From NCBI RefSeq assembly GCF_002198675.1, contig NZ_MWLL01000073.1, positions 1 to 32,012 on the forward strand: DNA of 32,012 nucleotides, given 5' to 3'. The translations under genes and the position numbers were made by a program. Positions 252 through 23,204 of this stretch are shown here, piece by piece. The number at the start of each line of letters is the position of its first letter. Within the stretch, counting starts at the first letter, position 1. The DNA comes from Kineosporia sp. R_H_3 (GTDB taxonomy: Bacteria > Actinomycetota > Actinomycetes > Actinomycetales > Kineosporiaceae). The notes under the pieces were generated by a model that was not told where the DNA came from, did no database searches, and saw only the letters and a program-made list of their open reading frames with translations.

Positions 252-1844
252 GTGGTAGGCGTTTCCGCAGGCCAGAGGCAGTTTCACCGTGCTGCTGATG
301 TCGGGGTGTCCGACGTGTTGCCAGCAGTCGCGTTATCACCAGGTTTGCAGTCGGCCTCCCCGGACGTGGGCGGCGCGAGTGTTGAGGCGCCTGCGTTCGA
401 CGGTAGCCCGGACGTCCCTGGTGGTCGAGAGTCCGGCGGGCAGTTGGTCCTGGAGGAGCGGTTCTCGATCGTCCCGGAGTGGGTGCTGGACGCGGACGTC
501 TCGGACGCGGCGGTTCGGCTGTATGCGGTGCTGTTGCGGTTCGGGTCGTCGTCGGGTCAGCGGATGCCGTCGCGGCGGACGTTGGCGGAGCGGCTGCGGA
601 AGAAGTCGGTCGACTCGGTGGACCGGGCGTTGAAGGAACTCGTCGCGATCGGCGCGGTGGAGGTGACCCGGCGGGTGCGGGACGGGGTGAACCTGACCAA
701 CCGGTACCTGGTGCGGAGCACCAGGCCCGGTCGGCCGGACCGGCCGGATCGTGCGGGGCGGGGGAGAGGTGGCCGCACGGATGAGGCCACCCCTGGCCAG
801 AGCGAGTCGGGTCGCGGTGCGCTCGCTGCTGACCGGGTGGTCCGCGGGTCGTGCCGGCGGGGCCGGGGTGGCCGCATGGTTGCGGCTACCCGTGGCCGCA
901 CCGGTGCGGCGGGGGTGGCCGCAGGCGTGCGGCTCGACCGAGAGTTCTCTACCGAGATCTCTCCTCCTCCCGGGCCCTCCTCCGGCGACGAGCGGGCGCC
1001 GGCCGAGGAGGTGCGTGCTGCCCGCCGCACGCAGGTCCTGGCCCTGATCGGCGTCGAGGACCTGGCGGACGTCGCCGCCGAGTGTGTCCGGTTGCGGCTC
1101 GAGCGGGGCCGCTCGGGAGCGCTGTGGACGGCAGACCGGCTCACCGACGTCCTGGCCGCTGCGGTCCTGGACGGCGGCTGGCCGGCCGCGGCAGCGGTCC
1201 CGGCCCTGCTCGCTGTTGCCGCGGACCCAGCGACCCGCAGCCCGGCGCGACTGTCCTGCCCGGGTCCCTGGTGGGACACCCAGGCGTCAGCCTCCACGCG
1301 GTCGGCGTCGGCGTGCGACGCACTGAGCCTGCTGGAGGCACGGTTGGCCGAGACCGACGGCCGGCGGGTGGCCCTGCAGTGCCGCGCCCGGGACGAGCTC
1401 ACCGCCGAAGGCACACCCGTGACCAGGGCCTCGGTCCTGCGACGCGCCGTGCAGATCCTCGACATGGAGATCCTCGATCGAGCCGCGGCCGGACACGGCT
1501 CGCCAGGAAGGGCGCGACAGGCTGTGGATGACGAACCGCGCCTGTCGCCGCTGCGGCGTAGCCTCGTGTCAGGCGAGGCGACGATCGCGAGGACGGAGGA
1601 CCTGGTGGACGCAGCACGGGACCTGTTCGGTCGCCCGGTCGTGACCGCGGCCGACCTGGAGGCGATGTCTGCGGAGCAGCGGCAGGTGTCGTTCGACGCC
1701 GCGGTCGTCACCGACCTGGACGCGCTACCGGCCGAGTTCGTCGACCAGGCCCGCCGCGACGCCCAGACCGCCCTGGCCCGCCGTGCCACCGATGGTGGGG
1801 CTGGGCAGGACACCGGTGGTGGTGGCGCGGCCCGGGCCTCGTGA
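252..1844 (+). CDS. Helix-turn-helix protein of integrative elements (replication-type)
   Basis: This 530-residue protein has a winged-helix region at about residues 70-155. Its recognition stretch contains PSRRTLAERL followed by SVDRALKEL and an NRYLV end, the pattern of the HTH_36-like proteins near the integrase end of actinobacterial integrative elements. A second conserved-looking block near residues 290-350 (VLDGGWPAAAAVPALLAVA, then GPWWDT) is also familiar from those elements. A Gly/Arg-rich linker joins the two. The start is uncertain: GTG 252 has no ribosome binding site, the first 65 residues are low-complexity, and in-frame GTG codons at 306 and 315 are alternatives. It begins 40 bp inside the left att copy and overlaps the next gene by 4 nt. 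DNA binding or replication initiation is inferred from family resemblance. Confidence 0.7.
   Translation: MVGVSAGQRQFHRAADVGVSDVLPAVALSPGLQSASPDVGGASVEAPAFDGSPDVPGGRESGGQLVLEERFSIVPEWVLDADVSDAAVRLYAVLLRFGSSSGQRMPSRRTLAERLRKKSVDSVDRALKELVAIGAVEVTRRVRDGVNLTNRYLVRSTRPGRPDRPDRAGRGRGGRTDEATPGQSESGRGALAADRVVRGSCRRGRGGRMVAATRGRTGAAGVAAGVRLDREFSTEISPPPGPSSGDERAPAEEVRAARRTQVLALIGVEDLADVAAECVRLRLERGRSGALWTADRLTDVLAAAVLDGGWPAAAAVPALLAVAADPATRSPARLSCPGPWWDTQASASTRSASACDALSLLEARLAETDGRRVALQCRARDELTAEGTPVTRASVLRRAVQILDMEILDRAAAGHGSPGRARQAVDDEPRLSPLRRSLVSGEATIARTEDLVDAARDLFGRPVVTAADLEAMSAEQRQVSFDAAVVTDLDALPAEFVDQARRDAQTALARRATDGGAGQDTGGGGAARAS
332..353 (+). repeat. 22-bp subterminal repeat, left copy
   Basis: This 22-mer matches 23044-23065 at 19 of 22 positions in the same orientation. 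Both copies lie inside the bracketed segment, about 120 bp from the left att copy and 65 bp from the right one. Such a position suits integrase arm sites, though it lies within the longest reading of the first gene. The similarity is seen directly; the role is inferred. Confidence 0.4.
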
Positions 1845-2167
1845 CCGCTCGGCGTGACGTCCGCCCGACCAGCGACTTCTTCGACGACCTGCACCGTCAA
1901 CTCCCCGCCGAGCGCGGTGAGGACGGCACCCCGTCGCGGACGGACTTCGAGCTGTACGAGCTGCTGGCGATCCTCGACCGGTTCGCCACCGGCTGGGAAG
2001 ATCTGCCGCCCCTGATCCCCGGCCGTGACGACTACCGGGTCCTGATCGCCACCGGTCGCCTTGTCCGCGCGTACGCAGTGCACGGGCAACTCGCCGCCGA
2101 CGGTGTCGTCGAGCTGGTGTTCCTGCGCATCGACGTCGGCTCGCAGCTCGGCCGACACGACCTGTAG
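1841..2167 (+). CDS. Hypothetical protein of integrative elements
   Basis: This 108-residue acidic protein starts at a GTG that overlaps the stop codon of the preceding gene by 4 nt, so the two are probably translationally coupled. I do not recognise a named domain. The second half contains PGRDDYRVLIATG followed by VELVFLRID, a beta-rich pattern that vaguely recalls RelE/ParE-like folds. That is too weak to call it a toxin, and no antitoxin-like partner is present. Its tight linkage to the HTH protein marks it as part of the same mobile-element module. The gene is followed by about 260 bp without coding capacity. Confidence 0.6.
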   Translation: MTARRDVRPTSDFFDDLHRQLPAERGEDGTPSRTDFELYELLAILDRFATGWEDLPPLIPGRDDYRVLIATGRLVRAYAVHGQLAADGVVELVFLRIDVGSQLGRHDL

Positions 2168-2361
2168 GTAGCCAGGGGTTGCTCCCGCGACGCGACGACG
2201 GGACCGGCGGCAGCCGCGCAGTGAACTGCGGCACGTGACGCAGGACGAGCACTCGCCGGGTCGTCGTTCACCACCGAGCGCTGCGTCCTCGGACGCTTGA
2301 TCCGTCGAATCGGGTACACGGTGGTGGCGGGGCCGGCGTCTGTGTCCCTCAGTTCGGGATC

Positions 2362-2420
2362 TTGACGACCTCAAGGGCTCCTGATTAAGTCATCACTTGA
2401 TTAAGTGAATGCTTGATAAG
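2362..2420 (+). promoter_or_regulatory. Probable ArsR operator and promoter for the 2431-4245 operon
   Basis: A perfect palindrome, TCACTT-GATT-AAGTGA, occupies 2393-2408. Related half-sites flank it: CTGATTAAGT at 2381-2390 and GCTTGATAAG at 2411-2420, giving three copies of a TGATTAAG-like word about 15 nt apart. A TTGACG hexamer at 2362-2367 could be a -35 box, with its -10 falling on the first repeat. Palindromes of this form are typical ArsR-family sites, and the operon encodes an ArsR protein, so autorepression is a reasonable inference. Confidence 0.55.
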
Positions 2421-2430
2421 GGGAGGTCTG

Positions 2431-2955
2431 ATGGATCCGGTGGCGTTCTTCGAGGCGGCCGCGACGCGTGCGGTGGTCCTGGCCGACGCGGTGACCGATG
2501 ACCAGCTGTCGGCTCAGACGCCGTGCAGCGAGTGGGACGTGCGCGCGCTGCTGGATCATATGCGCGGCGGCGCGCACTACCTCCTTGCTGCGACCGGGCA
2601 TCCCGGCGAGGGCCTCGCGTCGTACCGGGACGCCGTGGAGCAGTGCCTCGAGGCGCTGCGTGAGCCTGGTGTGCTCGCTCGGACGTGCACCTCCCCGTTG
2701 GGCTTCGAGTGGTCCGTCGCCGAGGCTGTGGCCGGGACGTTCATGGACCAGCTGGTGCACAGCTGGGACCTGGCCGTAGCGACCGGTCAGGACCGCAGGC
2801 TCGACGTCGGTCTGGTCGACGCGTGCGTGGCGATGTTCCTGCCCGACATGCCCGAGCATGGCCGCGCTGCGGGTCTGGTCGGCCCCGCGGTGCCTGTCGC
2901 CGTCGATGCCCCCGCCCAGGACCGGCTGCTGGCTGCGATGGGCCGCACTCCGTGA
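2431..2955 (+). CDS. DinB-like metal-binding protein (TIGR03086 / mycothiol-dependent type)
   Basis: This 174-residue protein belongs to the DinB-like superfamily that includes mycothiol-dependent maleylpyruvate isomerase. Visible signatures are TPCSEWDVRALLDHM near residues 30-45 and VHSWDLA near residue 110. Their histidines are expected metal ligands in this four-helix-bundle family. Many members act in thiol transfer or isomerisation, but the substrate is unknown here. I chose ATG 2431 because GGGGAGG lies 4-5 nt upstream; an upstream TTG at 2413 would place the ribosome binding site inside the gene. It is the first gene of a four-gene operon and its stop overlaps the next start (GTGA). 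Confidence 0.8.
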   Translation: MDPVAFFEAAATRAVVLADAVTDDQLSAQTPCSEWDVRALLDHMRGGAHYLLAATGHPGEGLASYRDAVEQCLEALREPGVLARTCTSPLGFEWSVAEAVAGTFMDQLVHSWDLAVATGQDRRLDVGLVDACVAMFLPDMPEHGRAAGLVGPAVPVAVDAPAQDRLLAAMGRTP

Positions 2956-3377
2956 CGCCAGGGGCCGTGCCGCCAGAGTCAGCGACACCGGAACCGTCGG
3001 ACGCCGTGGGTGAGCCGGACGGTGTGCTGGAGGAGGCGGTGCGCGCGATGGGCCATCCCGGCCGGCGGGCGATGCTCGCCCTGGCGCGCCAGGGGGAGCG
3101 GACCGCGACCGAGCTGGCACAGGCCGCAGGGCTGTCCGCTGCCGCGGCCAGTCCCCACCTGAAGCTGCTGCGCCAGACCGGCCTGCTGCACGTCCGGGTC
3201 GACGCGCAGCGCCGGCTCTACCGGGCGGACTTCGCCCGGCTCGCGCAGGTCCGCGCCGTCCTCGACGAGGTCTGGGGCGACGCCCTCGACCGCCTCCGAA
3301 CGGTCGCCGAGCACGACGAGGCAGAAGCCACGCAGCCGCGCGCCGGCGCCCGCGGCCGGCGAGCGGGCGGGGCGTGA
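2952..3377 (+). CDS. ArsR-family winged-helix repressor
   Basis: This 141-residue protein carries an ArsR-type winged helix at about residues 25-105, with the recognition helix in ATELAQAAGLSAAAASPHLKLL and a wing in VRVDAQRRLYRAD. No metal-binding CVC motif is present, so the inducer is unlikely to be a classic heavy metal. It follows the DinB-like gene with a GTGA overlap and is coupled to the next gene by ATGA. ArsR-SRPBCC pairs are a recurrent actinobacterial arrangement in which the regulator controls its SRPBCC neighbour. The palindrome at 2393-2408 is the obvious candidate operator. The tail is Arg/Ala-rich and probably disordered. Confidence 0.85.
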   Translation: MTPGAVPPESATPEPSDAVGEPDGVLEEAVRAMGHPGRRAMLALARQGERTATELAQAAGLSAAAASPHLKLLRQTGLLHVRVDAQRRLYRADFARLAQVRAVLDEVWGDALDRLRTVAEHDEAEATQPRAGARGRRAGGA

Positions 3378-3898
3378 TGAGCGGACCGGACGACGGCGAC
3401 GCACCTGCGGGCCTGGGGGTGCGTCTCGTCGACCGCACCGTCGTCGTCGCAGCCCCACCGGAGCGGGTCTACGCACTCCTCACACATGCTGACGGGATCG
3501 TGCGCTGGATGGCGCCGCAGGCCCAGGTCGAGGCCGTCGTCGACGGGGTCATCGCCTGGCGGCACGCCAACGGCGACCGGGTCGAGGGCCGGTTCGTGGA
3601 GCTCGTCCCGGCCCGACGGGTCGTCTTCACCTACGGCTGGGACCGGCAGGACGTCGGGATCCCCGTCGGGTCGACCCTCGTCGAGATCACCCTGACGCCG
3701 CTGCCGTCCGCCGACGGAACCGGCACCGAGCTGCACCTCGTGCACCGCGGCCTGTCCGAGCCGATGGCCAGAGCCCACCACGGCGGCTGGGCCAACTACC
3801 TCGCACGCCTCACCGCCGTCGCCGAGGGCCGCGACCCCGGACCCGACCCGCTGGCCGCCGAACGCGTCCCCGCTGCAGGACAACGGGTCGAGCCGTGA
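3374..3898 (+). CDS. SRPBCC / AHSA1-domain protein
   Basis: This 174-residue protein has the START-like (SRPBCC) fold of the Aha1 C-terminal-like group. It has the N-terminal strand VRLVDRTVVVAAPPERVYALLTHA, followed by W-rich segments (RWMAPQA, AWRHANGD) and the strand RVVFTYGWD. Such proteins bind hydrophobic small molecules in a deep cavity, and their ligands are rarely known. The start ATG overlaps the ArsR stop (ATGA), and the next gene overlaps its own stop, so all four genes must share a transcript. It is encoded next to its presumed regulator, which fits a small-molecule response operon. Confidence 0.85.
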   Translation: MMSGPDDGDAPAGLGVRLVDRTVVVAAPPERVYALLTHADGIVRWMAPQAQVEAVVDGVIAWRHANGDRVEGRFVELVPARRVVFTYGWDRQDVGIPVGSTLVEITLTPLPSADGTGTELHLVHRGLSEPMARAHHGGWANYLARLTAVAEGRDPGPDPLAAERVPAAGQRVEP

Positions 3899-4245
3899 CC
3901 GCCGACGACGCGAGGGCGCTCTGGGACGACGTCAGCGGCTCGCAGCGCCAGGATCCCGACGTCGCGGGCTCGACGATGATGGGTCTGCCCTGCCTGCGCG
4001 TCGCCGGCGCGTTCTTCGCCGCCTGGGGTCCACGCACCGGCGACCTGCTCGTCAAGCTGTCCGCCCTCCCGGTGGATGCCCTCGTCGACTCCGGCCACGC
4101 CCACTCCTTCGCACCGGCCGGCCGCCGGTTCCGCGCCTGGGCCGCGATCCCCGCCACCCGAGCAGCCAGTTGGCCCGGGCTGGTGGATGAGGCCCTGCGC
4201 CACGTCCGCGACAGCACCGGACCCGCATCTGACGGCGCGCGCTGA
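3895..4245 (+). CDS. MmcQ/YjbR-like small protein
   Basis: This 116-residue protein resembles the MmcQ/YjbR (CyaY-like fold) family. Recognisable parts are STMMGLPCLRVAGAFFAAW near residues 25-43, a LLVKLS strand, and the FAPAGRRFRAWAAIP segment near residues 70-85. Members are often found beside ArsR/SRPBCC genes and have no established biochemical function. GTG at 3895 overlaps the stop of the SRPBCC gene. It ends the first ArsR operon and is followed by about 120 bp leading to the second. The family call is from memory of the pattern and is moderately secure. Confidence 0.65.
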   Translation: MTADDARALWDDVSGSQRQDPDVAGSTMMGLPCLRVAGAFFAAWGPRTGDLLVKLSALPVDALVDSGHAHSFAPAGRRFRAWAAIPATRAASWPGLVDEALRHVRDSTGPASDGAR

Positions 4246-4332
4246 CACACCTGTCGAGCCGGCTGGCTCTGCCAGGGGATTGCCAGGTCCGATAGCTGCA
4301 GACCGTCGACAACGCTTCACCGATCCATTAAC

Positions 4333-4350
4333 GTTCACCGCAAGGTGAAC
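4333..4350 (+). promoter_or_regulatory. Palindromic operator upstream of second ArsR gene
   Basis: A perfect 7-bp inverted repeat, GTTCACC-GCAA-GGTGAAC, sits immediately before the ribosome binding site (AAGGAGG, 4352-4358) of the ArsR gene at 4367. Its position would let a bound repressor block transcription or initiation. It differs completely from the operator at 2393-2408, so the two ArsR proteins should not cross-regulate. Binding is inferred. Confidence 0.6.
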
Positions 4351-4366
4351 CAAGGAGGTCGGCGGC

Positions 4367-4792
4367 GTGCGCGACGGTCCGGCCCAGGACGACGTGTCGG
4401 ACGACGTCCTGGACGGCGTCCTCGTGGCCCTGGCCAACCCGCACCGCCGCGACATCGTCTACCTCGTCGGCCTGCAGCCCAGGGCGGTCAGCGAGCTCGC
4501 CCGGCACCGCGGGCTGTCGCTGCCCGCGATCCACAAGCACATCAGCATCCTCGTCGACGCCGGGCTGGTCGTCCGGCACAAGCGCGGGCGCACCACCTAC
4601 CTCACGCTCAACCGTCGACCCCTGGCACAGCTGCAGGACTGGGTCGGCCAGTTCCACACCTACTGGGGCGCCGACCGCGCCACCTACGACAACTACGCCC
4701 GACACCTCGGCATCGACGCCCCGGACCCCGACCCGGACCCCGGCGGGGACGCCGGGGCCGGGACCGACACCCCATCAGGGAGCCAGCCATGA
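4367..4792 (+). CDS. ArsR-family winged-helix repressor
   Basis: This 141-residue protein contains an ArsR-type helix-turn-helix at about residues 15-95: LANPHRRDIVYLVG, then VSELARHRGLSLPAIHKHISIL as the recognition region, and the wing VVRHKRGRTTYLTL. No metal-binding cysteines are present. GTG 4367 is selected because AAGGAGG lies 8 nt upstream. The C-terminus is an Asp/Pro/Gly-rich tail. Its stop overlaps the following YCII-like gene by 4 nt, so that gene is its likely target. The two ArsR proteins of this region are not close copies of each other. Confidence 0.85.
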   Translation: MRDGPAQDDVSDDVLDGVLVALANPHRRDIVYLVGLQPRAVSELARHRGLSLPAIHKHISILVDAGLVVRHKRGRTTYLTLNRRPLAQLQDWVGQFHTYWGADRATYDNYARHLGIDAPDPDPDPGGDAGAGTDTPSGSQP

Positions 4793-5082
4793 AGAAGTTC
4801 CTCGTCCTCACCTACGGTTTCACCACCCCGACCCCCGAGGTCCAGACCGCCTGGGGCGCATGGTTCGCCGCCGCCGGGCCGCACCTCGTCGACCCCGGAA
4901 GCCCTTTCGGGCGCGGCGTCGAGCTCACCCCGTCCGGCCGCACCGACCTCACCCTGGACTCGCCCGAACCCCTGGTCGGCTACTGCATCCTCAACGCCGA
5001 CAGCCTCGCCGACGCCGAGAAGCTCGTCGCCACGATGCCGATCATCGACAGCGTCCGGGTCTACGAGGCGCACTCGATGTAG
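4789..5082 (+). CDS. YCII-related domain protein
   Basis: This 97-residue single-domain protein has the ferredoxin-like pattern of YCII-related proteins: an N-terminal strand MKKFLVLTYGF, a helix around VQTAWGAWFAAAG, and a closing strand with DSLADAEKLVATMP and VRVYEAHSM. The family is common in actinobacteria beside ArsR/SRPBCC genes or ECF sigma factors, and its function is mostly unknown. The ATG overlaps the ArsR stop (ATGA), so it is co-transcribed with its probable repressor. About 100 bp separate it from the convergent methyltransferase gene. Confidence 0.75.
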   Translation: MKKFLVLTYGFTTPTPEVQTAWGAWFAAAGPHLVDPGSPFGRGVELTPSGRTDLTLDSPEPLVGYCILNADSLADAEKLVATMPIIDSVRVYEAHSM

Positions 5083-5183
5083 CCTCGGCGCCGACCGGTC
5101 AGCGCCGACCTCGACCAGTTGACCGGTGCGGGGTGGACTTGGCCGGTCCCGGGCGTCTCCAGGTCCAGTCCTGTAGGCGAACG

Positions 5184-6043: not shown

Positions 6044-6074
6044 CCGGGAAGGACACGCGGCCGGCGTGGGTTCC
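6044..6074 (+). promoter_or_regulatory. ECF-type promoter (CCGGGAA-N17-GGGTTCC)
   Basis: The -35 element CCGGGAA (6044-6050) and -10 element GGGTTCC (6068-6074) are separated by 17 nt. The same pair at the same spacing occurs at 7444-7474, with close relatives at 16132-16163 (minus) and 16232-16263. GGAA at -35 and GTT at -10 are usual for ECF sigma factors. The predicted transcription start is at 6081, giving a leader of about 110 nt before the membrane-protein gene at 6193. Confidence 0.7.
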
Positions 6075-6192
6075 ACACGCATGACCCGACGGCGTCACCC
6101 GCGAACGTGTGCCAGCACACAGAACTCGCCGGGTGCGGCTCCTAGCGTCGCGGTGAGGCGTCCGTCGGGGATGCCGGTGAGGAGTGCGTGCG

Positions 6193-6639
6193 ATGTCGAC
6201 GACCGCTCAGCGTCCGACGACGATGATGGGGATCTCCGTGCCGCAGGTCGGTGCGGGGGTCGCCGGGGGCCTGGCCGGGGGCCTGGTCTTCGGTCTCATG
6301 ATGCAGATGATGGGCATGATGGCGATGGTCGCCCAGCTCGTGGGGTCGACGGCGGTCGCGGTCGGCTGGGTGGCGCACCTGGCGATCTCGGCGTTCATCG
6401 GGGCGTCGTTCACTGTGCTGGGGGCGCGGTTCCTCGGTGGCCTGGTGACGGGGCTGGTGGCGGGCGCGGTGTACGGGATGGTGTGGTGGGTCCTGGGGCC
6501 GTTGCTGCTCATGCCGGCCAGGCTGGGGATGCCGCTGTTCACGATCGACGCGATGGCGTGGAAGAGCCTCATGGGTCACGTGGTGTTCGGCATGGTCCTC
6601 GGGGCTGTCGCCGCGGTCGCGGTGCGCCGCACCCGATGA
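6193..6639 (+). CDS. Methionine-rich small membrane protein
   Basis: This 148-residue protein has about four hydrophobic segments, near residues 18-45, 47-72, 78-100 and 122-143. The first transmembrane stretch has glycine-zipper spacing (GAGVAGGLAGG), then a methionine cluster (LMMQMMGMMAMV). Met clusters in membranes can bind soft metals such as Cu(I), but nothing else here shows metal binding. I do not recognise a named family with confidence; a YagU/DUF6789-like protein is possible. ATG 6193 is preceded by GAGGAG at 8 nt. It lies downstream of the ECF-type promoter at 6044-6074 and 22 nt before the Crp/Fnr gene. Confidence 0.75.
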   Translation: MSTTAQRPTTMMGISVPQVGAGVAGGLAGGLVFGLMMQMMGMMAMVAQLVGSTAVAVGWVAHLAISAFIGASFTVLGARFLGGLVTGLVAGAVYGMVWWVLGPLLLMPARLGMPLFTIDAMAWKSLMGHVVFGMVLGAVAAVAVRRTR

Positions 6640-6661: not shown

Positions 6662-7381
6662 ATGATGCCGGGCTCCGAGGACAGCCGCGCGCGCGACGTC
6701 GTCGACGTCGCGCGCGCGTGGCGGCTGTCGGAGATGGACCTGTTCGCCGACCTCTCGGACGCCGAGATGCAGGCGATCGCCGAGGCGGCACCGATGCGTG
6801 AGGTGCCGCGGGGGGCGCTGCTCTACGCACCGCACCGGCCGGTCGACGTGCTGTTCATCGTCAAGGCAGGTCGGGTCAGGGTCTACCGGACGGCGGTCGA
6901 CGGCCGCAGCCTGACCACGGCCATCGTCACCCCTGGGCAGCTGTTCGGGCAGATGCCCGCACTCGGGCAGCGGATGGACGACGCGTACGCGGAGATGCTC
7001 GAGGCCGGCGTCTTGTGCGTGATGAACCGGTCCGACGTGCAGCGGCTGCTCTTCGCCGACGCCCGGATCGTCGCTCGCGTCACCGCCCTGCTCGGGTCGC
7101 GGATCGCCGAGCTCGAGACCCGGCTCACCGACACGGCCCTGAAGACGGTGCCGGCCAGGATCTGCTCGGCGCTGGCCACCATCGCCGGATCACCGCCTAC
7201 GCCCGTCCGGTTGACGCACGACCAGATCGCCGACCTCGTCGGCACCACCCGCGAGACGACGACCAAGGTGCTCGGGGACCTGCGGGACAGGCACTACATC
7301 CGGCTGCGCCGGGGGCGGATCGACGTCCTCGACCCGCTCGCCGTCCTCGAGCTCGCGGACCGCCTCGACACCCGGACCTGA
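6662..7381 (+). CDS. Crp/Fnr-family transcriptional regulator
   Basis: This 239-residue protein has an N-terminal cyclic-nucleotide-binding beta barrel (about residues 25-140, with VDVLFIVKAGRVRVYR and the PGQLFGQMPALG turn). A dimerisation helix follows, then a Crp-type helix-turn-helix near residues 180-225 (LTHDQIADLVGTTRETTTKVLGDL). The cysteine cluster of FNR is missing, and the barrel lacks a clear cAMP-binding RSAA-like motif, so the effector is unknown. It sits 22 nt after the membrane-protein gene and is probably co-transcribed with it from the ECF promoter. Its first codons form a large palindrome (6686-6718). Confidence 0.9.
   Translation: MMPGSEDSRARDVVDVARAWRLSEMDLFADLSDAEMQAIAEAAPMREVPRGALLYAPHRPVDVLFIVKAGRVRVYRTAVDGRSLTTAIVTPGQLFGQMPALGQRMDDAYAEMLEAGVLCVMNRSDVQRLLFADARIVARVTALLGSRIAELETRLTDTALKTVPARICSALATIAGSPPTPVRLTHDQIADLVGTTRETTTKVLGDLRDRHYIRLRRGRIDVLDPLAVLELADRLDTRT
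6686..6718 (+). repeat. Near-perfect GC palindrome inside the start of the Crp/Fnr gene
   Basis: Arms of 15 bp (6686-6700 and 6704-6718) flank a 3-nt loop and are built from alternating CG plus GACGTC. The start codon is only about 24 nt upstream. Translation gives a near-palindromic peptide, RARDVVDVARA (residues 9-19). The hairpin could hinder early elongation or re-initiation, or serve as a protein-binding site. No function is established. Confidence 0.6.
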
Positions 7382-7443: not shown

Positions 7444-7474
7444 CCGGGAAGGGGACGGCGGCGGGCCGGGTTCC
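7444..7474 (+). promoter_or_regulatory. ECF-type promoter with start codon at predicted +1
   Basis: CCGGGAA (7444-7450), a 17-nt spacer and GGGTTCC (7468-7474) reproduce the promoter at 6044-6074. The ATG of the next gene (7481) begins 9 nt after the last T of GGGTT, where transcription should start. No ribosome binding site is present, so a leaderless mRNA is predicted. Leaderless transcripts are common in actinobacteria. Confidence 0.7.
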
Positions 7475-7480
7475 CGGTGC

Positions 7481-7768
7481 ATGGACATCGACACGCTCCG
7501 GTGGGCGCGGTGGCGGGACTGCCGGTGGGCGGCGGCCAGGATCCAGGCCGCCCTCGATGACGACCCGGACGGTCGCCTCGACCTCTGGGACCTCGAACGC
7601 CTGGTCAGCCACCTCGCGCAGTGCCGGCGCTGCCGCTCGATGACCGCGGACTACCAGCGGCTCGCCGCCTCGCTGGACCGGATCGCCGCCCGCAGCGGTC
7701 CCGACCCCGCTGTCGTGCGTCGCCTGCAGCACGTGGCTGTGGTTCATCCCCACGAGGAGACTCCGTGA
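7481..7768 (+). CDS. Small HxxxCxxC protein, anti-sigma-like
   Basis: This 95-residue protein has an N-terminal Trp/Arg-rich helix and then LERLVSHLAQCRRC near residues 42-55. That is the HxxxCxxC core of zinc-binding anti-sigma (zf-HC2) proteins. The anti-sigma gene at 16908 has the very similar KHLEHCRRC. No transmembrane segment is visible, so it would be soluble. It starts directly at the predicted transcription start of an ECF-type promoter and overlaps the oxidoreductase gene by 4 nt. It may be a second sigma-sequestering or redox-sensing protein of the same regulon. The motif is seen; the role is inferred. Confidence 0.75.
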   Translation: MDIDTLRWARWRDCRWAAARIQAALDDDPDGRLDLWDLERLVSHLAQCRRCRSMTADYQRLAASLDRIAARSGPDPAVVRRLQHVAVVHPHEETP

Positions 7769-9252
7769 CCGCGTCCGACCCCGCCGCCCTCCCCGCGCCG
7801 CCTCCGGGCGGCTGGGACCTCCTGGTCGTCGGCGGCGGCACCGCCGGCATCGTCGCGGCGAAGACCGCCGCCGGGTTCGGGGCTTCGGTGCTGCTCGTCG
7901 AGCGGGAGCGGATGGGCGGAGACTGCCTGTGGACCGGGTGCGTCCCCAGCAAGGCGCTCCTCTCCGCGGCCGCGACCGCGGCATCAGCACGCCGCTCCGG
8001 CACGCACGGGGTGCACACCGGTGTCGTGGAGGTCGACTTCCCGGCGGTGATGAAGCATGTTCGGGCCGCGGTGGCGACGATCGAGCCGGCCGACTCCGTC
8101 GAGACGATGGAGGCGGCCGGCGTGCGGGTGGTCGCAGGGGATCTGACGTTCACGGGGCGACGGACCGCCTGGGTCGGGGGCGTGGACGTCCCGTTCCGGC
8201 AGGCGGTCCTGGCGATGGGTGCCTCGCCCGCGGTGCCGCCCGTGCCGGGCCTCGCGGAGGCCGTGGCGACCGGGCACGCGCTGACGAGCGACACCGTCTG
8301 GGACCTCGCCGACCTGCCGGAGCGCCTCGTCGTGCTCGGCGGGGGCAGCATCGGCTGCGAGCTCGGCCAGGCCTTCGCCCGGCTCGGCGCCACGGTGACG
8401 GTCGTCGAGGCCGCCCCAGGGCTGCTGCCCCGTGAGGACCTCGACGCCGCCGCAGTGGTGACGGATGCCTTGCGCGAGGACGGCGTCACCGTGCTGACCG
8501 GCGCCGCGGTGCGCCAGGTGCTGCCCGACGGTCCGGCGTCGGGCCGCCTGGTGCTCGACGGTGACGTCGAGGTGGCCTACGACCGGCTCCTGGTCGCGGT
8601 CGGCCGCACCCCGCGGACCGCGGGGCTCGGCCTGGAGACGGCGGGTGTGCGCGTCGACCGCCGCGGGTTCGTCCAGTTGGACAAGGCGCTGCGGACGAAC
8701 AACCCACGGATCTGGGCCGCCGGGGACATCACCGGGCACCCGCAGTTCACCCACACGGCCGGGGTGCACGCGAGCACCGCGGCCTCGAACGCCGTGCTGG
8801 GGCTGCACCGGGCGGCGCAGACGACGGCGATCCCACGGGTGACGTTCACCGACCCCGAGGTCGCCGCGGTCGGGGTGCCCGCGACGGACGCCGACGGCCG
8901 CCCGGGGTGGCGGGTGGTGACCCGGCGCCACGACGAGGTCGACCGCGCGGTCGCCGAGGCAGACACCGCAGGCTTCGCCCGGCTCGTGCTCGACGGCAAG
9001 GGGCGCGTCCGCGGTGCCACCGTCGTGGGGCCGCGGGCGGGCGAGTCGCTCGCCGAGCTCGTGCTCGCCGTCCGGCTCGGTCTGCGCAGCCGTGACCTCG
9101 CCGGCACCGTGCACGCGTACCCGACGTACGGCGACGGGCCGTGGAACGCGGCGATCGCCGACGTCCGGGCCCAGCTCGCGACGCCGCGGGCCGCACGGGC
9201 GGTCGGGGTCCTCGTCGGGCTGCGTCGCCGCTGGCTCGGCCTGCGGGGCTGA
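7765..9252 (+). CDS. FAD-dependent pyridine nucleotide-disulfide oxidoreductase
   Basis: This 495-residue protein belongs to the class I disulfide reductases (lipoamide dehydrogenase, mercuric reductase). The FAD motif GGGTAG lies near residue 23, the redox-active disulfide is C54/C59 in GGDCLWTGCVPSK, the NAD(P) motif GGGSIGCELG is near residue 192, and AAGDITG marks the second FAD contact. The usual C-terminal His-Glu dyad (HPTxxE) is replaced by YPTYGD. The N-terminal HMA domain and the C-terminal Cys pair of mercuric reductase are absent, so it is not a classical MerA. GTG 7765 follows GAGGAGA and overlaps the upstream stop. Relatives are often encoded near TVP38/TMEM64 proteins, as here. 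The disulfide substrate is unknown. Confidence 0.88.
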   Translation: MTASDPAALPAPPPGGWDLLVVGGGTAGIVAAKTAAGFGASVLLVERERMGGDCLWTGCVPSKALLSAAATAASARRSGTHGVHTGVVEVDFPAVMKHVRAAVATIEPADSVETMEAAGVRVVAGDLTFTGRRTAWVGGVDVPFRQAVLAMGASPAVPPVPGLAEAVATGHALTSDTVWDLADLPERLVVLGGGSIGCELGQAFARLGATVTVVEAAPGLLPREDLDAAAVVTDALREDGVTVLTGAAVRQVLPDGPASGRLVLDGDVEVAYDRLLVAVGRTPRTAGLGLETAGVRVDRRGFVQLDKALRTNNPRIWAAGDITGHPQFTHTAGVHASTAASNAVLGLHRAAQTTAIPRVTFTDPEVAAVGVPATDADGRPGWRVVTRRHDEVDRAVAEADTAGFARLVLDGKGRVRGATVVGPRAGESLAELVLAVRLGLRSRDLAGTVHAYPTYGDGPWNAAIADVRAQLATPRAARAVGVLVGLRRRWLGLRG

Positions 9253-9290: not shown

Positions 9291-9926
9291 TCAGCGCAGC
9301 GCGCGGTACCCGGCCCAGATCCGGTGCGCCGCGCTGATCCCGACGACGACGGCCCAGACCGTGGCGACCCGGCCGGCGGCCGCAGGCACCAGGCACCACA
9401 GGGCGTGGACGGCGACCGTCTCGGTACCCTCGGCGAGGCCGCCGAGGAACGACAGGGAGCGCCCGTCGTCGATCGTCCGGCCGGTGCGCTCGGCGACCGA
9501 GGAGAACGCGAGGAACACCGACCCGTTGACGTAGTAGGCGAGCAGCACGGCGACGAACGGCCACGGGGACCCGCCCGCGCCGACGGCGACCCCGACGACG
9601 GTCGTGCCGTAGACGACGAAGTCGGCGCTGATGTCGAGGAAGCCCCCGGCCTGCGACGGCGGCCGGGCGCCGTCGCCGGACGGCGCGCGGGATGCCGCGA
9701 GGCGCCGGGCCAGCGGGCCGTCGAGACCGTCCGCCAACCGGGACGCCAGCCACAGAGCCAGGGCCACCGTCCACCACCGCTGCGCCGCCGCGGCGGCGCT
9801 CGCCAGACCGACGACGAGCCCGACGACCGTCATCCGGTCCGGGGTCATCCAGCCGACCCGGGTGAGCCCGCCGGCGACCGCGTCCAGGGGCCGCTCGAGG
9901 ACGCGGCGCGCCGTGGCGTCGAGCAT
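9291..9926 (-). CDS. CDP-alcohol phosphatidyltransferase family membrane protein
   Basis: This 211-residue integral membrane protein carries the family motif DGxxAR...GxxxDxxxD (DGPLAR near residue 66, then GGFLDISAD). The Asp residues bind metal and CDP in the known enzymes, which transfer a phosphatidyl or similar group from a CDP-activated donor to an alcohol. Between AR and the conserved Gly there are 19 residues instead of the usual 8, and the extra stretch is Gly/Pro/Ser-rich. ATG 9926 overlaps the stop of the upstream TVP38 gene. E. coli YnjF, next to the YnjBCD transporter, is a member of this family, so the association recurs. The acceptor alcohol is unknown. Confidence 0.85.
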   Translation of the reverse strand: MLDATARRVLERPLDAVAGGLTRVGWMTPDRMTVVGLVVGLASAAAAAQRWWTVALALWLASRLADGLDGPLARRLAASRAPSGDGARPPSQAGGFLDISADFVVYGTTVVGVAVGAGGSPWPFVAVLLAYYVNGSVFLAFSSVAERTGRTIDDGRSLSFLGGLAEGTETVAVHALWCLVPAAAGRVATVWAVVVGISAAHRIWAGYRALR

Positions 9927-10630
9927 CAGGCGCCGTCCGTGCCCGAGGCTGTCCCGGCGGGCGGCCCGGCGGGCGGCATGCGGTGCCGGCGCCCGGCGAC
10001 CCAGCCGCCGAGCGAGAGCGCGCCGAGGACGACGACGGACAGCGCGAACTGCCACGACCGCGGTGCCGTGCCGTAGTGCCCGAGTGCGACGAACGCGACG
10101 GTGCCGGGGACGATGCCGACGGCGGTGCCGAGCAGGTAGTCACGGAACCGGACGCCGAGCAGCCCGCTGCCGTAGTTGACGGCGGTGAACGGGAAGACAG
10201 GTACGAGCCGGACCGCGACGACCGCGAGCACACCGCGGCGCTCGAGGACCTGGTCCAGGCGGTCCAGCCGACGGCCGGTGAGACGCCGGACGCCGTCACG
10301 GCCCAGTGCCCGGCCGAGCCAGAACGCGGCGACCGCACCGAGCAGGGCGGCGACGAGCACGAGCCCGGTGCCGGCGACGATGCCGAAGACCACCCCGGCT
10401 GCCGCGCTGAGCACGTTCTTCGGCAGCGGTGCGAGGGTCGCGAGGGCGTAGACGACGACGAAGAGCACCGGCCCGGCGGTGCCGGCGTCCGCGACGAGGG
10501 CCTTCAGCGAGTCGACGTCGGGCACCCCGCGGACCGCGACCACCGCCGCCGCGCCGCCGACGATGAGCAGCAGCACCGCCAGTCGGAGCCAGACCCCGCG
10601 GGACGGGTCGCCCGCCGCATCGTCCGGCAC
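9926..10630 (-). CDS. TVP38/TMEM64 (VTT-domain) membrane protein
   Basis: This protein of about 234 residues has an N-terminal transmembrane helix (LAVLLLIVGGAAAVVAV). The VTT/DedA-like core follows, with PLPKNVLSAAAGVVFG and the conserved region VRLVPVFPFTAVNYGSGLLGV, then further helices. These proteins resemble lipid scramblases and half-transporters; E. coli YdjX and YdjZ are homologues lying near the ynj genes. The start is uncertain. GTG 10630 has GGAGG too close (2 nt), and the open frame continues upstream into the radical SAM gene. The stop (TGA) shares one base with the ATG of the phosphatidyltransferase gene, so the two are tightly coupled. Confidence 0.8.
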   Translation of the reverse strand: MPDDAAGDPSRGVWLRLAVLLLIVGGAAAVVAVRGVPDVDSLKALVADAGTAGPVLFVVVYALATLAPLPKNVLSAAAGVVFGIVAGTGLVLVAALLGAVAAFWLGRALGRDGVRRLTGRRLDRLDQVLERRGVLAVVAVRLVPVFPFTAVNYGSGLLGVRFRDYLLGTAVGIVPGTVAFVALGHYGTAPRSWQFALSVVVLGALSLGGWVAGRRHRMPPAGPPAGTASGTDGA

Positions 10631-10656
10631 GTCCTCCGGCCCGGCCTGCGGCGGGC

Positions 10657-12057
10657 TCAGCGGACCTCCACCAGCGGCAGGAGCCGGCGCAGTCCCGCGT
10701 TCTCGACCGGGTCGAGCACCGCGTGCTGGGCGCACGCCGGGACCAGCTTCCCCGTCTCCGGGTGGGCCATCGTGTACATGCACGCCCGCAGTCTCTCCTG
10801 CGTCGCGGTCACGTCCGGGTCGGCGCTCGTCTCACCACGTTCGAGGAGGTCCCAGGCCGGGGCGACCTGGGCGGCGTCCATGAACGCGTGGACGACGAAC
10901 GTCATCGGCCGCACGTGACGGCGGGTGAGGGCGGGCAGCAGTCGGCGCAGGCCGCCCGCGCGGTGCAGCAGCGACCGGCCGTAGCGCAGACCGACGACGA
11001 GGTCGGCGGGGTGCGCGGCGAGCACCCGGGCCAGCTTGGCGAGGAGCAGCACCGGTGGCGTGCCACCGAAGTTCACTCCACCGAGGTGGGCGTAGAAGCG
11101 GTCCCGCGCCACGGCGTCCAGCGGTTCCTGCTCGTCCATGAGCGGCACCCATCGTGTCCCGACGAGCAGCCCGAACGCCGTCCGGTTGCAGCGCCGGTCG
11201 CCGAGCTGGATGCCGGCCCAGGGGAGCCGGGTCCCGGCGCCGCGCTCCATCTGCGCCCAGACGGCGTCGATGTCGAGGGTGCGGTAGCCCTCCTTCCAGC
11301 GGCGGTCGTCGCCGAGGAACGCCGCGGGCTGGAACGACATCATCTGGTACCCCATGGGCAGCACCGCGGCGACGACCTCGGCGACCTGGTCGAGGTTGGC
11401 CGGGGTGACGGTCATGTTGTGCGCCAGGTAGGAGCGGACGCCGAGCTCACGACGCAGCGCCGCGAACATGTCCGCGAACCGCTGCCGGAAGAGGTGCAGC
11501 TCGGCCTCGGACCGCGGGCGGGGGATGCCCCGGCGGCCGCGCATGAGGGAGTCCATGTGCGCGGCGAACGACACCCGCCGCAGCCGGACCCGACCGGTCG
11601 CGTCGGTGACGAGACACCGCAGGTAGTCGGCGTCGAAGTCCCCGTGCGTCATGGACATCGGCTCACGACCGTGCCGGCGCATCGACAGCAGGGCGGCGGC
11701 GTGGTCGTCCGGCGCGAGTAGGCTCACCTCGCCGCCGATGAGCTGGGCGTGCGCGCGCGGCCCGCGCTGCTCACGCAGGAACGCCATCTGCCGGTCCACC
11801 TCGGCGAGGGTGTGCGCGCCGTCGACCCGCACCTTGTTCGCGTCCTTCGAGTGGTAGCACGGCGTGCACGTCAGGTCGCACCTCGGGAAGACGCCGTGCG
11901 TCCCCTCGCACCCGATCGCGTGCCTGCCGAGGGACTGCTCCGGGGTGCGCGCGTGCTCGGGGAGGTCGGCCCAGCGCCGGTCGAGCGCGGCCCGGGTCTG
12001 CGGGTGCACCGGCTGGGTCGCCTCGAGCAGGCGCCAGGCGGTCCGTCGTACTTGCAC
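10657..12057 (-). CDS. Radical SAM domain protein
   Basis: This 466-residue protein has a radical SAM cluster motif C60-x3-C64-x2-C67 in RCDLTCTPCYH. Position 7 of the motif is followed by Tyr-His, close to the usual aromatic residue. An additional C50 precedes it, and Cys residues near the C-terminus (ACMYTMAHPETG, PACAQH) could bind a second cluster or substrate. A GGE-like SAM-binding segment appears as LIGGEVSLL. It is not a recognisable peptide maturase with a SPASM domain. GTG 12057 has GAGGAG 6 nt upstream. It lies 21 nt after the ABC ATPase gene and before the TVP38 gene in the same operon. The substrate is unknown and may be what the transporter brings in. Confidence 0.83.
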   Translation of the reverse strand: MQVRRTAWRLLEATQPVHPQTRAALDRRWADLPEHARTPEQSLGRHAIGCEGTHGVFPRCDLTCTPCYHSKDANKVRVDGAHTLAEVDRQMAFLREQRGPRAHAQLIGGEVSLLAPDDHAAALLSMRRHGREPMSMTHGDFDADYLRCLVTDATGRVRLRRVSFAAHMDSLMRGRRGIPRPRSEAELHLFRQRFADMFAALRRELGVRSYLAHNMTVTPANLDQVAEVVAAVLPMGYQMMSFQPAAFLGDDRRWKEGYRTLDIDAVWAQMERGAGTRLPWAGIQLGDRRCNRTAFGLLVGTRWVPLMDEQEPLDAVARDRFYAHLGGVNFGGTPPVLLLAKLARVLAAHPADLVVGLRYGRSLLHRAGGLRRLLPALTRRHVRPMTFVVHAFMDAAQVAPAWDLLERGETSADPDVTATQERLRACMYTMAHPETGKLVPACAQHAVLDPVENAGLRRLLPLVEVR

Positions 12058-12078
12058 GTGCGGCTCCTCGGGGCAGGG

Positions 12079-13140
12079 TCAGTCGGGCAGGACGTGCCCG
12101 TGGCCGGGCGGTAGCGCGACGCGGACCAGGTCGCCGGGCGCGGCCTTGAGGGTCGGCGGGGTGACCGCGTGCAGGACGGCGTCGCCGACGTGCAGGTCGA
12201 GCTCCCACGAGGTGCCGCGGTACCTGGCGTCGGTCACGGTCGCGGCCAGCCCGGCGGCGTCCGGGTCGAGGTCGACGACGAGGGACTCCTGGCGGACGGC
12301 GAGGGTCGCGGGGCCGTCCGGGGCGCCGGTCGGGACGCGCCCGAGCGGGCCCGTCCACACGCCGTCGCGGACGACTCCGGGGACGAGGTTGGCGGTGCCG
12401 AGGAAGCGCGCGACCGGCAGCGACGCCGGCCGCTCGTAGAGCTCCTGCGGTGTCCCGTCCTGCGCGACCCGGCCGCCCAGCAGGACGGCGACCCGGTCGG
12501 AGAGGGACGCCGCCTCCTCCTGGTCGTGGGTGACGAACAGTGTCGTCAGGCGCAGCTCGCGCTGGACGGCCCGGACCAGGCCGCGCATCTCCTCGCGCAG
12601 GCCGGCGTCCAGCTGGGACAGCGGCTCGTCGAGGAGCAGGACGCGCGGCCGGACGACGAGCGCCCGGGCCAACGCCACGCGCTGCTCCTGGCCGCCGGAC
12701 AGCTGGGCCGGACGCCGTGACCCGAGCCCGGACAGGTGCACCAGGTCCAGCATGTCGGCGACCCGGCGCCTGGTCGTCGTCCGGTCGACGCCCTGCATCC
12801 GCAGCCCGAAGGCGACGTTCCCGGCGACGTCGAGGTGCGGGAACAGCAGCGGCTGCTGGAAGACCACTGCGACCTCGCGCCGGTGGGTGGGCACCGTGAG
12901 GACGGACCGGCCGGCGACGCGAACGTCCCCGCCGGTCGGGGCGAGCAGCCCTGCGAGCAGGCGCAGGGCCGTCGTCTTGCCGCAGCCGGACGGGCCGAGC
13001 AGCGACGTGAGCGTGCCCGGCTCGACGGCGAGGTCGAAGCCGTCGAGGACCGGCGGCCCGCCGCGGTCATACCGGGCGACGACGGCGTCGAAGCGCACAC
13101 CCGCGGATGGATCCTCCTGCTGCCGAACGGGTCCGGTCAC
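12079..13140 (-). CDS. ABC transporter ATP-binding protein (PotA/YnjD-like)
   Basis: This 353-residue ATPase has Walker A GPSGCGKTT near residue 50, the Q-loop FQQPLLFPH, the signature LSGGQEQR, Walker B VLLLDEP and the H-loop VTHDQEEA. The C-terminal 100 residues form a TOBE-like beta domain (LAVRQESLVVD, WELDLHVGDAVL), as in polyamine, spermidine and molybdate importers. It energises the two permeases encoded just upstream. GTG 13140 begins 3 nt after the stop of the second permease. The C-terminal TOBE domain sets it apart from the shorter E. coli YnjD. Confidence 0.9.
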   Translation of the reverse strand: MTGPVRQQEDPSAGVRFDAVVARYDRGGPPVLDGFDLAVEPGTLTSLLGPSGCGKTTALRLLAGLLAPTGGDVRVAGRSVLTVPTHRREVAVVFQQPLLFPHLDVAGNVAFGLRMQGVDRTTTRRRVADMLDLVHLSGLGSRRPAQLSGGQEQRVALARALVVRPRVLLLDEPLSQLDAGLREEMRGLVRAVQRELRLTTLFVTHDQEEAASLSDRVAVLLGGRVAQDGTPQELYERPASLPVARFLGTANLVPGVVRDGVWTGPLGRVPTGAPDGPATLAVRQESLVVDLDPDAAGLAATVTDARYRGTSWELDLHVGDAVLHAVTPPTLKAAPGDLVRVALPPGHGHVLPD

Positions 13141-13143
13141 GGG

Positions 13144-13968
13144 TCAGGCCCTCCCGAGGGCTGCGAGCGTCTCACCCGAACCGGTCGATGCTCCGGCGCC
13201 GGTGAGCGCCCGGGCGGTGACGCCGACGAGCAGCAGCGGCGGGACGCTCACGACCAGGGCGAGGGCGGCGGCGAGCGCGGTGTCCCCGGAACCGATGGCG
13301 GAGAACAGCAGCAGCGGCAGCGTCGTCACGCTGCCGCCCCCGACGAGCAGCGTCAGGACGTACTCGTTCCAGGAGATGAGGAACGTCAGCATCATCGCGA
13401 CCGTCAGCGCCGGCCGCAGCGCCGGGAGGGTGACGTGGACCAGCACCCGCAGCGGGCTGGTGCCGAGCACCCGGGCCTGGTCCTCGAACGCCGTGTCGAA
13501 CCGGGTGTACGCCGCGGCCAGCACCAGCGTCGCGTACGGGGTCGCGGGGATGAGGTGGGCCAGGACGACGCCCGGCACGGTGTCAGCGAGCCGGTAGTGG
13601 ATGAACACCACCTGGATGCCGAGGCTCACGGTGATGCCCGGGACGACGACCGGGGCCAGGAGAGCGAACCGCACGAACCCCTTGCCGGGGAACGAGTGCA
13701 GGCCGAGCGCGCGGCCCGCGGCCAGCCCGACCGCCCCGGACACCACGGCGACCGTCGCAGCGATGCCGGCGGAGGTGACGAGCCCGGAGAGGATCTGCGA
13801 GCCGGGATCGGTCACGACCCGGACTGCGCGGTCGCCGAACGACTGCGGCCACAGTGCCGGGTACCGCCACGTCCTGGTGACCGACCAGACGGCCAGCAGC
13901 ACCAGCGGTGCGAGCAGCCCGGCGAGCAGGCCCGTGACGAGCAGCGGCGCACCGACGGCCCGCCTCAC
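13144..13968 (-). CDS. ABC transporter permease (second subunit)
   Basis: This 274-residue inner-membrane protein has about six transmembrane segments. The EAA-like loop is LGTSPLRVLVHVTLPALRPALTVAM near residue 180, typical of BPD-type importer permeases. GTG 13968 overlaps the stop of the first permease (GTGA). The reading frame stays open far upstream to 14694, but that part is Arg/Pro-rich and overlaps the first permease, so it is non-coding. In E. coli the equivalent YnjC is a single fused permease; here the two halves are separate genes. Confidence 0.88.
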   Translation of the reverse strand: MRRAVGAPLLVTGLLAGLLAPLVLLAVWSVTRTWRYPALWPQSFGDRAVRVVTDPGSQILSGLVTSAGIAATVAVVSGAVGLAAGRALGLHSFPGKGFVRFALLAPVVVPGITVSLGIQVVFIHYRLADTVPGVVLAHLIPATPYATLVLAAAYTRFDTAFEDQARVLGTSPLRVLVHVTLPALRPALTVAMMLTFLISWNEYVLTLLVGGGSVTTLPLLLFSAIGSGDTALAAALALVVSVPPLLLVGVTARALTGAGASTGSGETLAALGRA

Positions 13969-14864
13969 CGGGCGGTCCCGAGCCGGTCGAGCAGCCGCAG
14001 GTACACCGCCACGAGCGCGGTGACCGCGACGGCGAGGACGACGCCGATCGCGACCGCCTGCGGGCGCACCGCGAGGTCGGTGTCGGTGAACCGCTGGTAG
14101 GCGACAACGGCCAGCGGCGCCGGGTACGGCCGCCCGAGGACCGCGGGGACCTCGTACGACCCGAACGTGAACGCGAGGACGACGACCGACGCCGCCCCGA
14201 CGGCAGGTGCGACAAGCGGCAGCACGACGTGGCGGAACCGTTGCCAGGGGCGGGCTCCGAGCGTGGCGGCGACGTCCTGGAGGGGAGCCACGCCGCGGGC
14301 CAGGGCGGTGAGCGCCACGATGGTGACGAAGGGGGTCTCCTTCCACAGGTACTCGGCGAGCACGGCCCAGCCGAACCTGTCCTGCGTCAGTGCCGGGAAG
14401 TCCGCCGGTGACGAGGTCAGCCCGGCGGCGTACGCGAGCCGGGAGAGCAGGCCGCTCTGCGAGAGCATGAGGCTCATGGCGAGGGCGCCGACGAGATGAG
14501 GGACCGGGAGCCCGACCTGCAGGACCGCGGTGAGCAGGCGGCGCCCGCGGCGCGTCGAGTGCACGAGCATGGCGATCCCCAGGGCGAGCACCGCCGAGCC
14601 GGCGGTCGCGAGGACCGACATCCGCAGCGTCAGCACGAACGAGGCCCGGACCGCGCGGTCGTCGAGAAGCCCGGTGTAGGCGTCGGTCGTCCAAGACCAG
14701 CCCGGCAGGTACGGCTGGTAGCCCAGGCTCTGGAGCAGCCCGAGCCCCAGCCCGGTCCCGAAGAGCCCGACGACGACGAGCAGCGCCGGGGCCAGGAGCA
14801 CGGCGACGCGCAGGCCCGCGCGCCGGGCGGCCCGCTGCTCGGTGTCCGGACCGGCCGCGCTCAT
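13965..14864 (-). CDS. ABC transporter permease (first subunit)
   Basis: This 299-residue inner-membrane protein has a cytoplasmic N-terminus (RAARRAGLRVAV) followed by six predicted helices. The EAA loop is VAATLGARPWQRFRHVVLPLVAPAVG near residue 200, where the ATPase docks. ATG 14864 overlaps the stop of the binding-protein gene (ATGA). With 13144-13968 it should form the heterodimeric channel of a YnjBCD-like importer. Confidence 0.88.
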   Translation of the reverse strand: MSAAGPDTEQRAARRAGLRVAVLLAPALLVVVGLFGTGLGLGLLQSLGYQPYLPGWSWTTDAYTGLLDDRAVRASFVLTLRMSVLATAGSAVLALGIAMLVHSTRRGRRLLTAVLQVGLPVPHLVGALAMSLMLSQSGLLSRLAYAAGLTSSPADFPALTQDRFGWAVLAEYLWKETPFVTIVALTALARGVAPLQDVAATLGARPWQRFRHVVLPLVAPAVGAASVVVLAFTFGSYEVPAVLGRPYPAPLAVVAYQRFTDTDLAVRPQAVAIGVVLAVAVTALVAVYLRLLDRLGTAR

Positions 14865-16099: not shown

Positions 16100-16131
16100 T
16101 GAGGTCCCTTCACGGATCGGCGGGCGGTCCG

Positions 16132-16163
16132 GGAACCCGGTCCGGGCAGGCTGCCATTCCCGG
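16132..16163 (-). promoter_or_regulatory. ECF-type promoter of the transporter operon
   Basis: Read on the minus strand, CCGGGAA (16163-16157) is followed by an 18-nt spacer and GGGTTCC (16138-16132). These are the same elements as at 6044 and 7444. The -10 sits in the inverted repeat CCGGGTTCCCGG, which also occurs at 7466-7477. The predicted start is near 16125, leaving a 26-nt leader with the ribosome binding site AAGGGA before GTG 16099. Confidence 0.68.
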
Positions 16164-16231
16164 TCGTTGCGCGCCCGTCGGGCCTGCCGTGGCCATGACG
16201 CCGACCTCGTGGACCGGGCGCGCAGGCACGG

Positions 16232-16263
16232 TGCGGAATGCGGCACGGATCGAGCCGGGTTAC
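16232..16263 (+). promoter_or_regulatory. ECF-type promoter of the sigma-factor gene (autoregulation)
   Basis: TGCGGAA (16232-16238), 18 nt, then GGGTTAC (16257-16263) matches the other three promoters at GGAA and GGGTT. The GTG of the sigma gene (16270) begins 9 nt after the last T of GGGTT, the same offset as at 7481. No ribosome binding site precedes it. This predicts a leaderless, self-activated sigma gene. Confidence 0.55.
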
Positions 16264-16269
16264 CTCCGT

Positions 16270-23128: not shown

Positions 23129-23204
<76 letters not shown>

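Follow-up and report, generated by a model that had tools for sequence, protein, structure and literature searches.

Circuits of ECF sigma factors are usually drawn with one sigma factor and one anti-sigma factor. In the SigR-RsrA system of Streptomyces, the anti-sigma factor RsrA is a zf-HC2 protein whose Cys-His-Cys-Cys (CHCC) ligands include an N-terminal Cys, and SigR acts from promoters that we take to be of the GGGAA...GTT type. This N-terminal Cys is described as required for the redox sensing of RsrA (PMC4960319). RsiW, ChrR and DdvA carry an HxxxCxxC region as well, and RsiW and ChrR are given as members of the HHCC type (PMC4960319). ZAS-type class I anti-sigma factors have HxxxCxxC and an N-terminal His or Cys as their zinc ligands, and they fold as a bundle of helices 1 to 3 with a helix 4. 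In class I anti-sigma domains, helix 1 is reported to grip region 4 of the sigma factor and helix 4 to grip region 2, and an acidic residue of helix 1, or a hydrophobic alternative, is reported to contact region 4 (PMC7406223). An anti-sigma paralogue that stands under the control of the sigma factor itself and acts in negative feedback is described in Sphingomonas melonis, where this protein, NepR2, seems to bind PhyR and not the sigma factor (PMC6599016).

We analyzed a 32,012-nt stretch of DNA from Kineosporia sp. R_H_3, hereafter the window, in which an ECF sigma factor cluster encodes two zf-HC2 proteins. One of them, P0002, is encoded next to the sigma factor and is presumed to be its cognate anti-sigma factor. 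The other, P0001, is probably, judging from its sequence and its surroundings, a second ZAS-type (CHCC) anti-sigma factor for the same sigma factor, made by the sigma factor itself in a negative feedback. Like RsrA, P0001 is a zf-HC2 protein with CHCC ligands, an N-terminal Cys among them, and goes with a sigma factor whose promoters are of the GGGAA...GTT type; unlike RsrA, it is encoded together with a reductase, about 9 kb from the sigma gene, as an additional regulon-encoded copy. It differs from RsiW and ChrR in the type of its ligands, and from the anti-sigma domains of RsiW, ChrR and DdvA in being short and having no further domain. NepR2 would be the nearest analogue that we found, although it belongs to an unrelated protein family. 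None of the open-access articles listed as matches describes this second anti-sigma arrangement in its title or in the opening of its abstract.

P0001 and the class to which it belongs

The gene of P0001 (7481-7768, forward strand) starts with ATG and encodes 95 amino acids, with a GC content of 0.78/0.53/0.89 at the three codon positions. Its product scores 26.8 bits against the zf-HC2 profile (Pfam PF13490), and P0002 (16908-17243, forward strand) scores 35.1 bits, both above the Pfam cut-off of 22.2. The earlier note had paired HLAQCRRC of P0001 (residues 44-51) with HLEHCRRC of P0002 (residues 54-61) and had counted the flanking arginines as part of the likeness. The motif itself is aligned in both proteins and is not a product of chance, since they share 32% identity over 76 amino acids (E 6e-8 in a single pairwise comparison). 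The arginines are not diagnostic, because the motif varies within the class of P0001 (HLAVCARC, HLEACGRC, HLATCETC) and because P0001 and P0002 fall into different groups.

A scan of genome contigs with the protein found no close relatives of P0001, and its relatives were reached via the sigma and reductase genes. In the two further genomes of the genus that were searched (G001 and G002), P0001 has no match at E 0.01, any reductase match is at 1e-62 or weaker, and any sigma match is at 4e-25 or weaker. The sigma factor was sought in samples from the order, the taxonomic class and the phylum, and it was present in 6 of 396 genomes (E 1e-33), 11 of 394 (E 1e-36) and 24 of 396 (E 1e-36), respectively, with the genome of the window counted in each. 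The 43 other places obtained from these samples, a Segeticoccus locus (L118), an Actinacidiphila locus (L128) and the window make up the 46 sigma loci used below.

A tree of the zf proteins (57 proteins and 96 columns, with many forks open; 3 of 60 domain matches were dropped for scoring under 45 bits) places P0001 in a group of 16 with a support of 99/99. Five of the 16 are encoded between a sigma gene and a reductase gene, seven behind a sigma gene only and four before a reductase gene only, so 12 of them lie directly behind a sigma gene. P0002 groups with the sigma-adjacent zf protein of L128 (97/83). As the two proteins sit in separate supported groups, P0001 is not a fresh copy of P0002, and the idea that P0002 was recently duplicated into the operon of the reductase is rejected. 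In six genomes (G019, G073, G085, G245, G987 and G1102) the class member is the only strong subfamily match, the next being 2.3e-6 or weaker. Because it also lies directly behind the sigma gene there, the class of P0001 appears to behave as the cognate anti-sigma factor in those six genomes.

Residues C14, H44, C48 and C51 of P0001 keep the Cys-His-Cys-Cys order of RsrA and are invariant in all 16 aligned relatives. The acidic residue of helix 1 is present as D26, and 14 of the 15 other class members have Asp at this position. A chance occurrence of HxxxCxxC is ruled out by the zf-HC2 score, the class membership in the tree and the invariant ligands. P0001 has also changed at 7 of 26 well-conserved positions of the class, is the sole one of the 16 members with neither an aromatic residue nor His at residue 24, and has a long terminal branch in the zf tree (1.05). 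The predicted monomer consists of four helices in a poor model (pLDDT 69, from an alignment of 5 rows), with which Foldseek and VIA-align returned no anti-sigma domain among the matches listed. The PDB profile matches of P0001, all of them weak, are to RsiW (0.0022), DdvA (0.0066), RsrA (0.15) and ChrR (0.16) and agree with the putative anti-sigma assignment. Against the RsrA model TIGR03988, P0001 gives no match at E 0.01, and P0002 scores 33.2, under the cut-off of 62.5.

The ECF sigma factor of the window has the domains Sigma70_r2 and Sigma70_r4_2 and is encoded on the forward strand at 16189-16911, its start being uncertain between GTG 16189 and GTG 16348 (the gene call takes 16348). The gene of P0001 lies about 8.9 kb away from it. 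This sigma factor is not among the 12 rows of the sigma group (100/99) to which the class of P0001 corresponds, and its place among the remaining sigma factors is weakly supported in the sigma tree. The window thus mixes the classes, and this is what tells most against the feedback reading; within one group, anti-sigma factors are described as mostly orthogonal (PMC7406223). It may be that P0001 comes from a class-II system whose own sigma factor was lost or replaced by the present one on the island, that it has lost its binding to this present sigma factor, and that it is drifting and kept for now by its coupling to the reductase. Such a mismatched relic would fit a sigma factor outside the class-II sigma group, the changed class positions on a long branch, and a cluster that sits on an integrated island. 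We hold it to be unlikely all the same, as P0001 retains the four ligands, D26, its promoter with the short leader, and an open frame whose GC content is of the coding type.

Promoters and the extent of the regulon

A promoter of the sigma type, GGGAA-N19-GTTCC, stands ahead of P0001 on the forward strand (7446-7474), with its GTT starting 11 nt before the ATG at 7481. Together with the zf-HC2 score and the CHCC ligands, it bears out the claim of the earlier note that the sigma regulon contains a second HxxxCxxC protein. Another motif match (6046-6074, forward strand) precedes the genes for a DUF1440-like membrane protein (6184-6639, forward strand), a regulon gene whose weak Pfam match of 17.5 bits is under the cut-off of 34.7, and for a Crp-family regulator (6662-7381, forward strand). 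Relatives of these two genes are found near the sigma gene in L078, L081, L214, L217 and L218. A third match is a near-palindromic site at 16131-16161, which presents a full GTTCC to the ABC transporter operon on the reverse strand and ATTCC in place of GTTCC to the sigma gene on the forward strand. The part ahead of the ABC operon (16132-16161) is one base longer than GGGAA-N19-GTT, and the operon behind it encodes an ATPase, two permeases and a solute-binding protein (12079-16099, reverse strand).

Near-palindromic promoters (GGGAA...TTCCC) between divergent genes were also observed in L102, L104, L128, L196, L214, L216, L218 and L221, which suggests that one ECF sigma factor may start transcription both ways from such a site. 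The genes of the window at 9291-16099 encode a CDP-alcohol phosphatidyltransferase, a VTT/DedA protein, a radical SAM protein and a YnjB-type solute-binding protein with its ABC transporter, and presumably recall the ydjXYZ-ynjABCDEF genes of E. coli.

The window has two copies of GGGAA-N19-GTT, at 6046-6072 and 7446-7472, where 0.09 would be expected. Genome-wide, the pattern GGGAAN{18,20}GTTCC has 14 matches, three of them in the cluster, and its reversed control has 8; in its own genome the regulon thus seems to be largely confined to this locus. Across the 706,152 bases of the 46 sigma loci, the strict pattern set gave 96 matches against 5 when reversed. The motif stands on 46 of 531 non-zf genes of the sigma loci and on none of 303 genes in 26 loci that have a reductase gene and no local sigma gene, a count that leaves out genes overlapping zf domains or starting within 260 nt of the end of a stretch. 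The 26 loci exclude L126, L129 and L132, whose contigs are as long as those of L107, L105 and L106, as well as the short loci L088-L101, among which the sigma-less L098 has one motif match; they include L080, which comes from a genome with the sigma factor elsewhere (G029), and L131 and L133, which hold only distant reductases of less than 45% identity, the listing threshold for a reductase. On these counts the promoter motif tracks the ECF sigma subfamily of the cluster. A chance promoter is ruled out by the excess in the window, by the 96 matches against 5 reversed and by the 46 of 531 genes against 0 of 303.

It could be argued that the promoter of P0001 is used by a SigR-like sigma factor of the genome and not by the local sigma factor, which would then receive no feedback through P0001. 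GGGAA-N18/19-GTT does resemble the SigR consensus, and C122:38859 encodes a SigR-like sigma factor followed by a weak zf match. Against this, 34 of 38 genomes have sigma matches of E 1e-20 or better, and none of the 303 genes of the 26 sigma-less reductase loci (the genomes being only partly the same) bears the motif. We regard this reading as the least probable of the alternatives considered here.

Five loci (L078, L102, L103, L215 and L221) have the order sigma-zf-reductase in one operon. The window, L214, L216 and L217 have a split layout, with one zf gene behind the sigma gene and a second zf gene directly before the reductase gene. The promoter ends just ahead of this second zf gene; its spacer is N19 in the window and N20 in the three others, and its GTT lies 11 nt (window), 11 nt (L214), 10 nt (L216) and 11 nt (L217) before the start codon. 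Because this distance is 10-11 nt in all four split loci, the P0001-reductase transcript is predicted to be leaderless, and the start at ATG 7481 is supported.

A ZAS-type protein behind a regulon promoter, in a layout and with a promoter that return in three other actinobacterial genomes (L214, L216 and L217), makes a sigma-driven negative feedback the natural reading. The feedback by a second protein that the earlier note had suggested thus gains from the ZAS type, the regulon promoter and the recurring layout, and loses from the window's sigma factor standing outside the class-matched group. In the mechanism that we envisage, P0002 would hold the sigma factor in unstressed, reducing cells, and oxidation or metal stress would expel the zinc and free the sigma factor. 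The free sigma factor would then transcribe its own cluster, P0001 and the reductase included. When reducing conditions are back, the new P0001 would bind zinc and capture the sigma factor, and the response would be capped or ended.

The feedback might also be indirect, with P0001 binding another regulator or being a decoy that soaks up the zinc or thiol signal or a partner of P0002. The binding of PhyR and not of EcfG that is indicated for NepR2, a regulon-encoded NepR paralogue, would be in line with this (PMC6599016), and a titrating decoy is a possible role of P0001. We give indirect feedback a slim chance, as the class member is the only strong subfamily zf protein in the six genomes named above and is encoded directly behind the sigma gene.

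The neighboring reductase

The coupling of P0001 to a disulfide oxidoreductase gene was correctly recognized before: the stop codon of P0001 (TGA 7766-7768) overlaps the start codon of the reductase gene (GTG 7765-7767). The gene (7765-9252, forward strand) encodes a MerA-like FAD disulfide reductase with its CxxxxC active-site pair in GGDCLWTGCVPSK. MerA has a C-terminal Cys pair, and no such pair is found in the last residues of this reductase. It shares the flavoprotein disulfide reductase family with MerA and is not a true MerA, scoring 357.5 against TIGR02053 with a cut-off of 454.45.

A close reductase is encoded in 18 genomes of the order sample, and in 14 of them no zf gene lies ahead of it. 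Five of the 18 also have the sigma factor. A zf gene precedes the reductase gene in four of these five, G029 being the exception, versus none of the 13 genomes without the sigma factor (Fisher 0.0016, relatedness ignored). Like G029, the sigma-bearing loci L118, L128 and L218 have a close reductase with no zf gene ahead, and class members behind a sigma gene with no reductase gene directly downstream are found in L104, L218, L220 and L222. Since a zf gene before the reductase follows the sigma factor, and since reductases occur without a zf gene and class members without a reductase, the gene arrangements speak for a partnership of the zf protein with the sigma factor rather than with the reductase.

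The same arrangements bear on a reading in which P0001 assists the MerA-like reductase in redox chemistry or in the handling of metal and has its Cys pair reduced by that enzyme. The overlap of the two genes in the window would suit it, as would the fact that all nine zf genes directly ahead of such a reductase gene (9/9) belong to the class of P0001. With 14 of 18 genomes having the reductase without a zf gene ahead, and with class members in four loci behind a sigma gene and apart from any reductase directly downstream, it is very improbable, and the hint of the earlier note that the reductase resets the Cys pair finds no support. We infer that the reductase is a co-produced effector and not a dedicated partner of P0001.

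The tRNA-Lys island and second zf genes across the sigma subfamily

The window carries a genomic island of 22.96 kb (169-23173), flanked by a 44-nt stretch from the 3' part of tRNA-Lys that is identical at both ends (169-212 and 23130-23173). In G002 there is a single 44-nt copy, at which both flanks of the island adjoin, and in G001 there are two copies about 5.4 kb apart with other genes between them. Mobility in the past would explain why the zf and sigma classes are mixed. Elsewhere in the island, an ArsR-type regulator gene and a small partner gene (4301-5084) have a 94% match in G001. As this match lies outside the 5.4-kb element of G001, the history of the island is layered.

Two or more zf genes are present in 14 of the 46 sigma loci. 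The promoter lies upstream of 10 of the 16 zf genes that are not directly behind a sigma gene, and in seven of these 10 (window, L214, L216, L217, L187, L189 and L199) the GTT of the -10 element stands 10-12 nt before a start codon, a geometry shared by 15 of 531 other genes of the sigma loci. The second zf genes are scattered over several separate places of the zf tree and comprise reductase-linked genes (window, L214, L216 and L217), divergent and shortened ones (L187, L189 and L199, which have the same promoter at a distance of 12 nt) and further ones (L196; L210 and L224). In L196 and L224 the non-adjacent zf gene belongs to a locus in which no full sigma-adjacent zf gene was found. Some of the divergent second zf proteins have no N-terminal Cys, and they may work differently.

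Divergent, partly shortened zf-HC2 genes near the same sigma subfamily were observed at 7352-7654 of L128, 8550-8774 of L187, 2354-2566 of L189, 9411-9608 of L195 and 7010-7291 of L199. The L196 stretch at 1262-4400 has a divergent zf gene only, with no sigma-adjacent one found. Three of the 46 sigma loci (L081, L198 and L211) have no zf gene at the 45-bit level, among them L081 with its subfamily sigma gene at 12584-13189.

We put forward a broader proposal, whose chance of being right we put a little short of even: this ECF subfamily may often be wired with a two-tier brake, in which a sigma-adjacent ZAS protein is joined by a second one under the sigma factor's own promoter. Several zf lineages would have been recruited into a general design of the subfamily, of which the window would be one case, put together on a mobile island from mixed classes. 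If this is true, a recurrent, sigma-promoted second ZAS protein would give the switch a defined off-signal and a pulse-like output. It raises the question of whether two zinc/thiol sensors that share a sigma factor respond at different redox thresholds, with the constitutive one as the trigger and the induced one as the shut-off. The window, where a mobile island holds a class-II zf protein together with a sigma factor that is not of the class-II group, would offer a clear case for cross-recognition between classes of anti-sigma factors.
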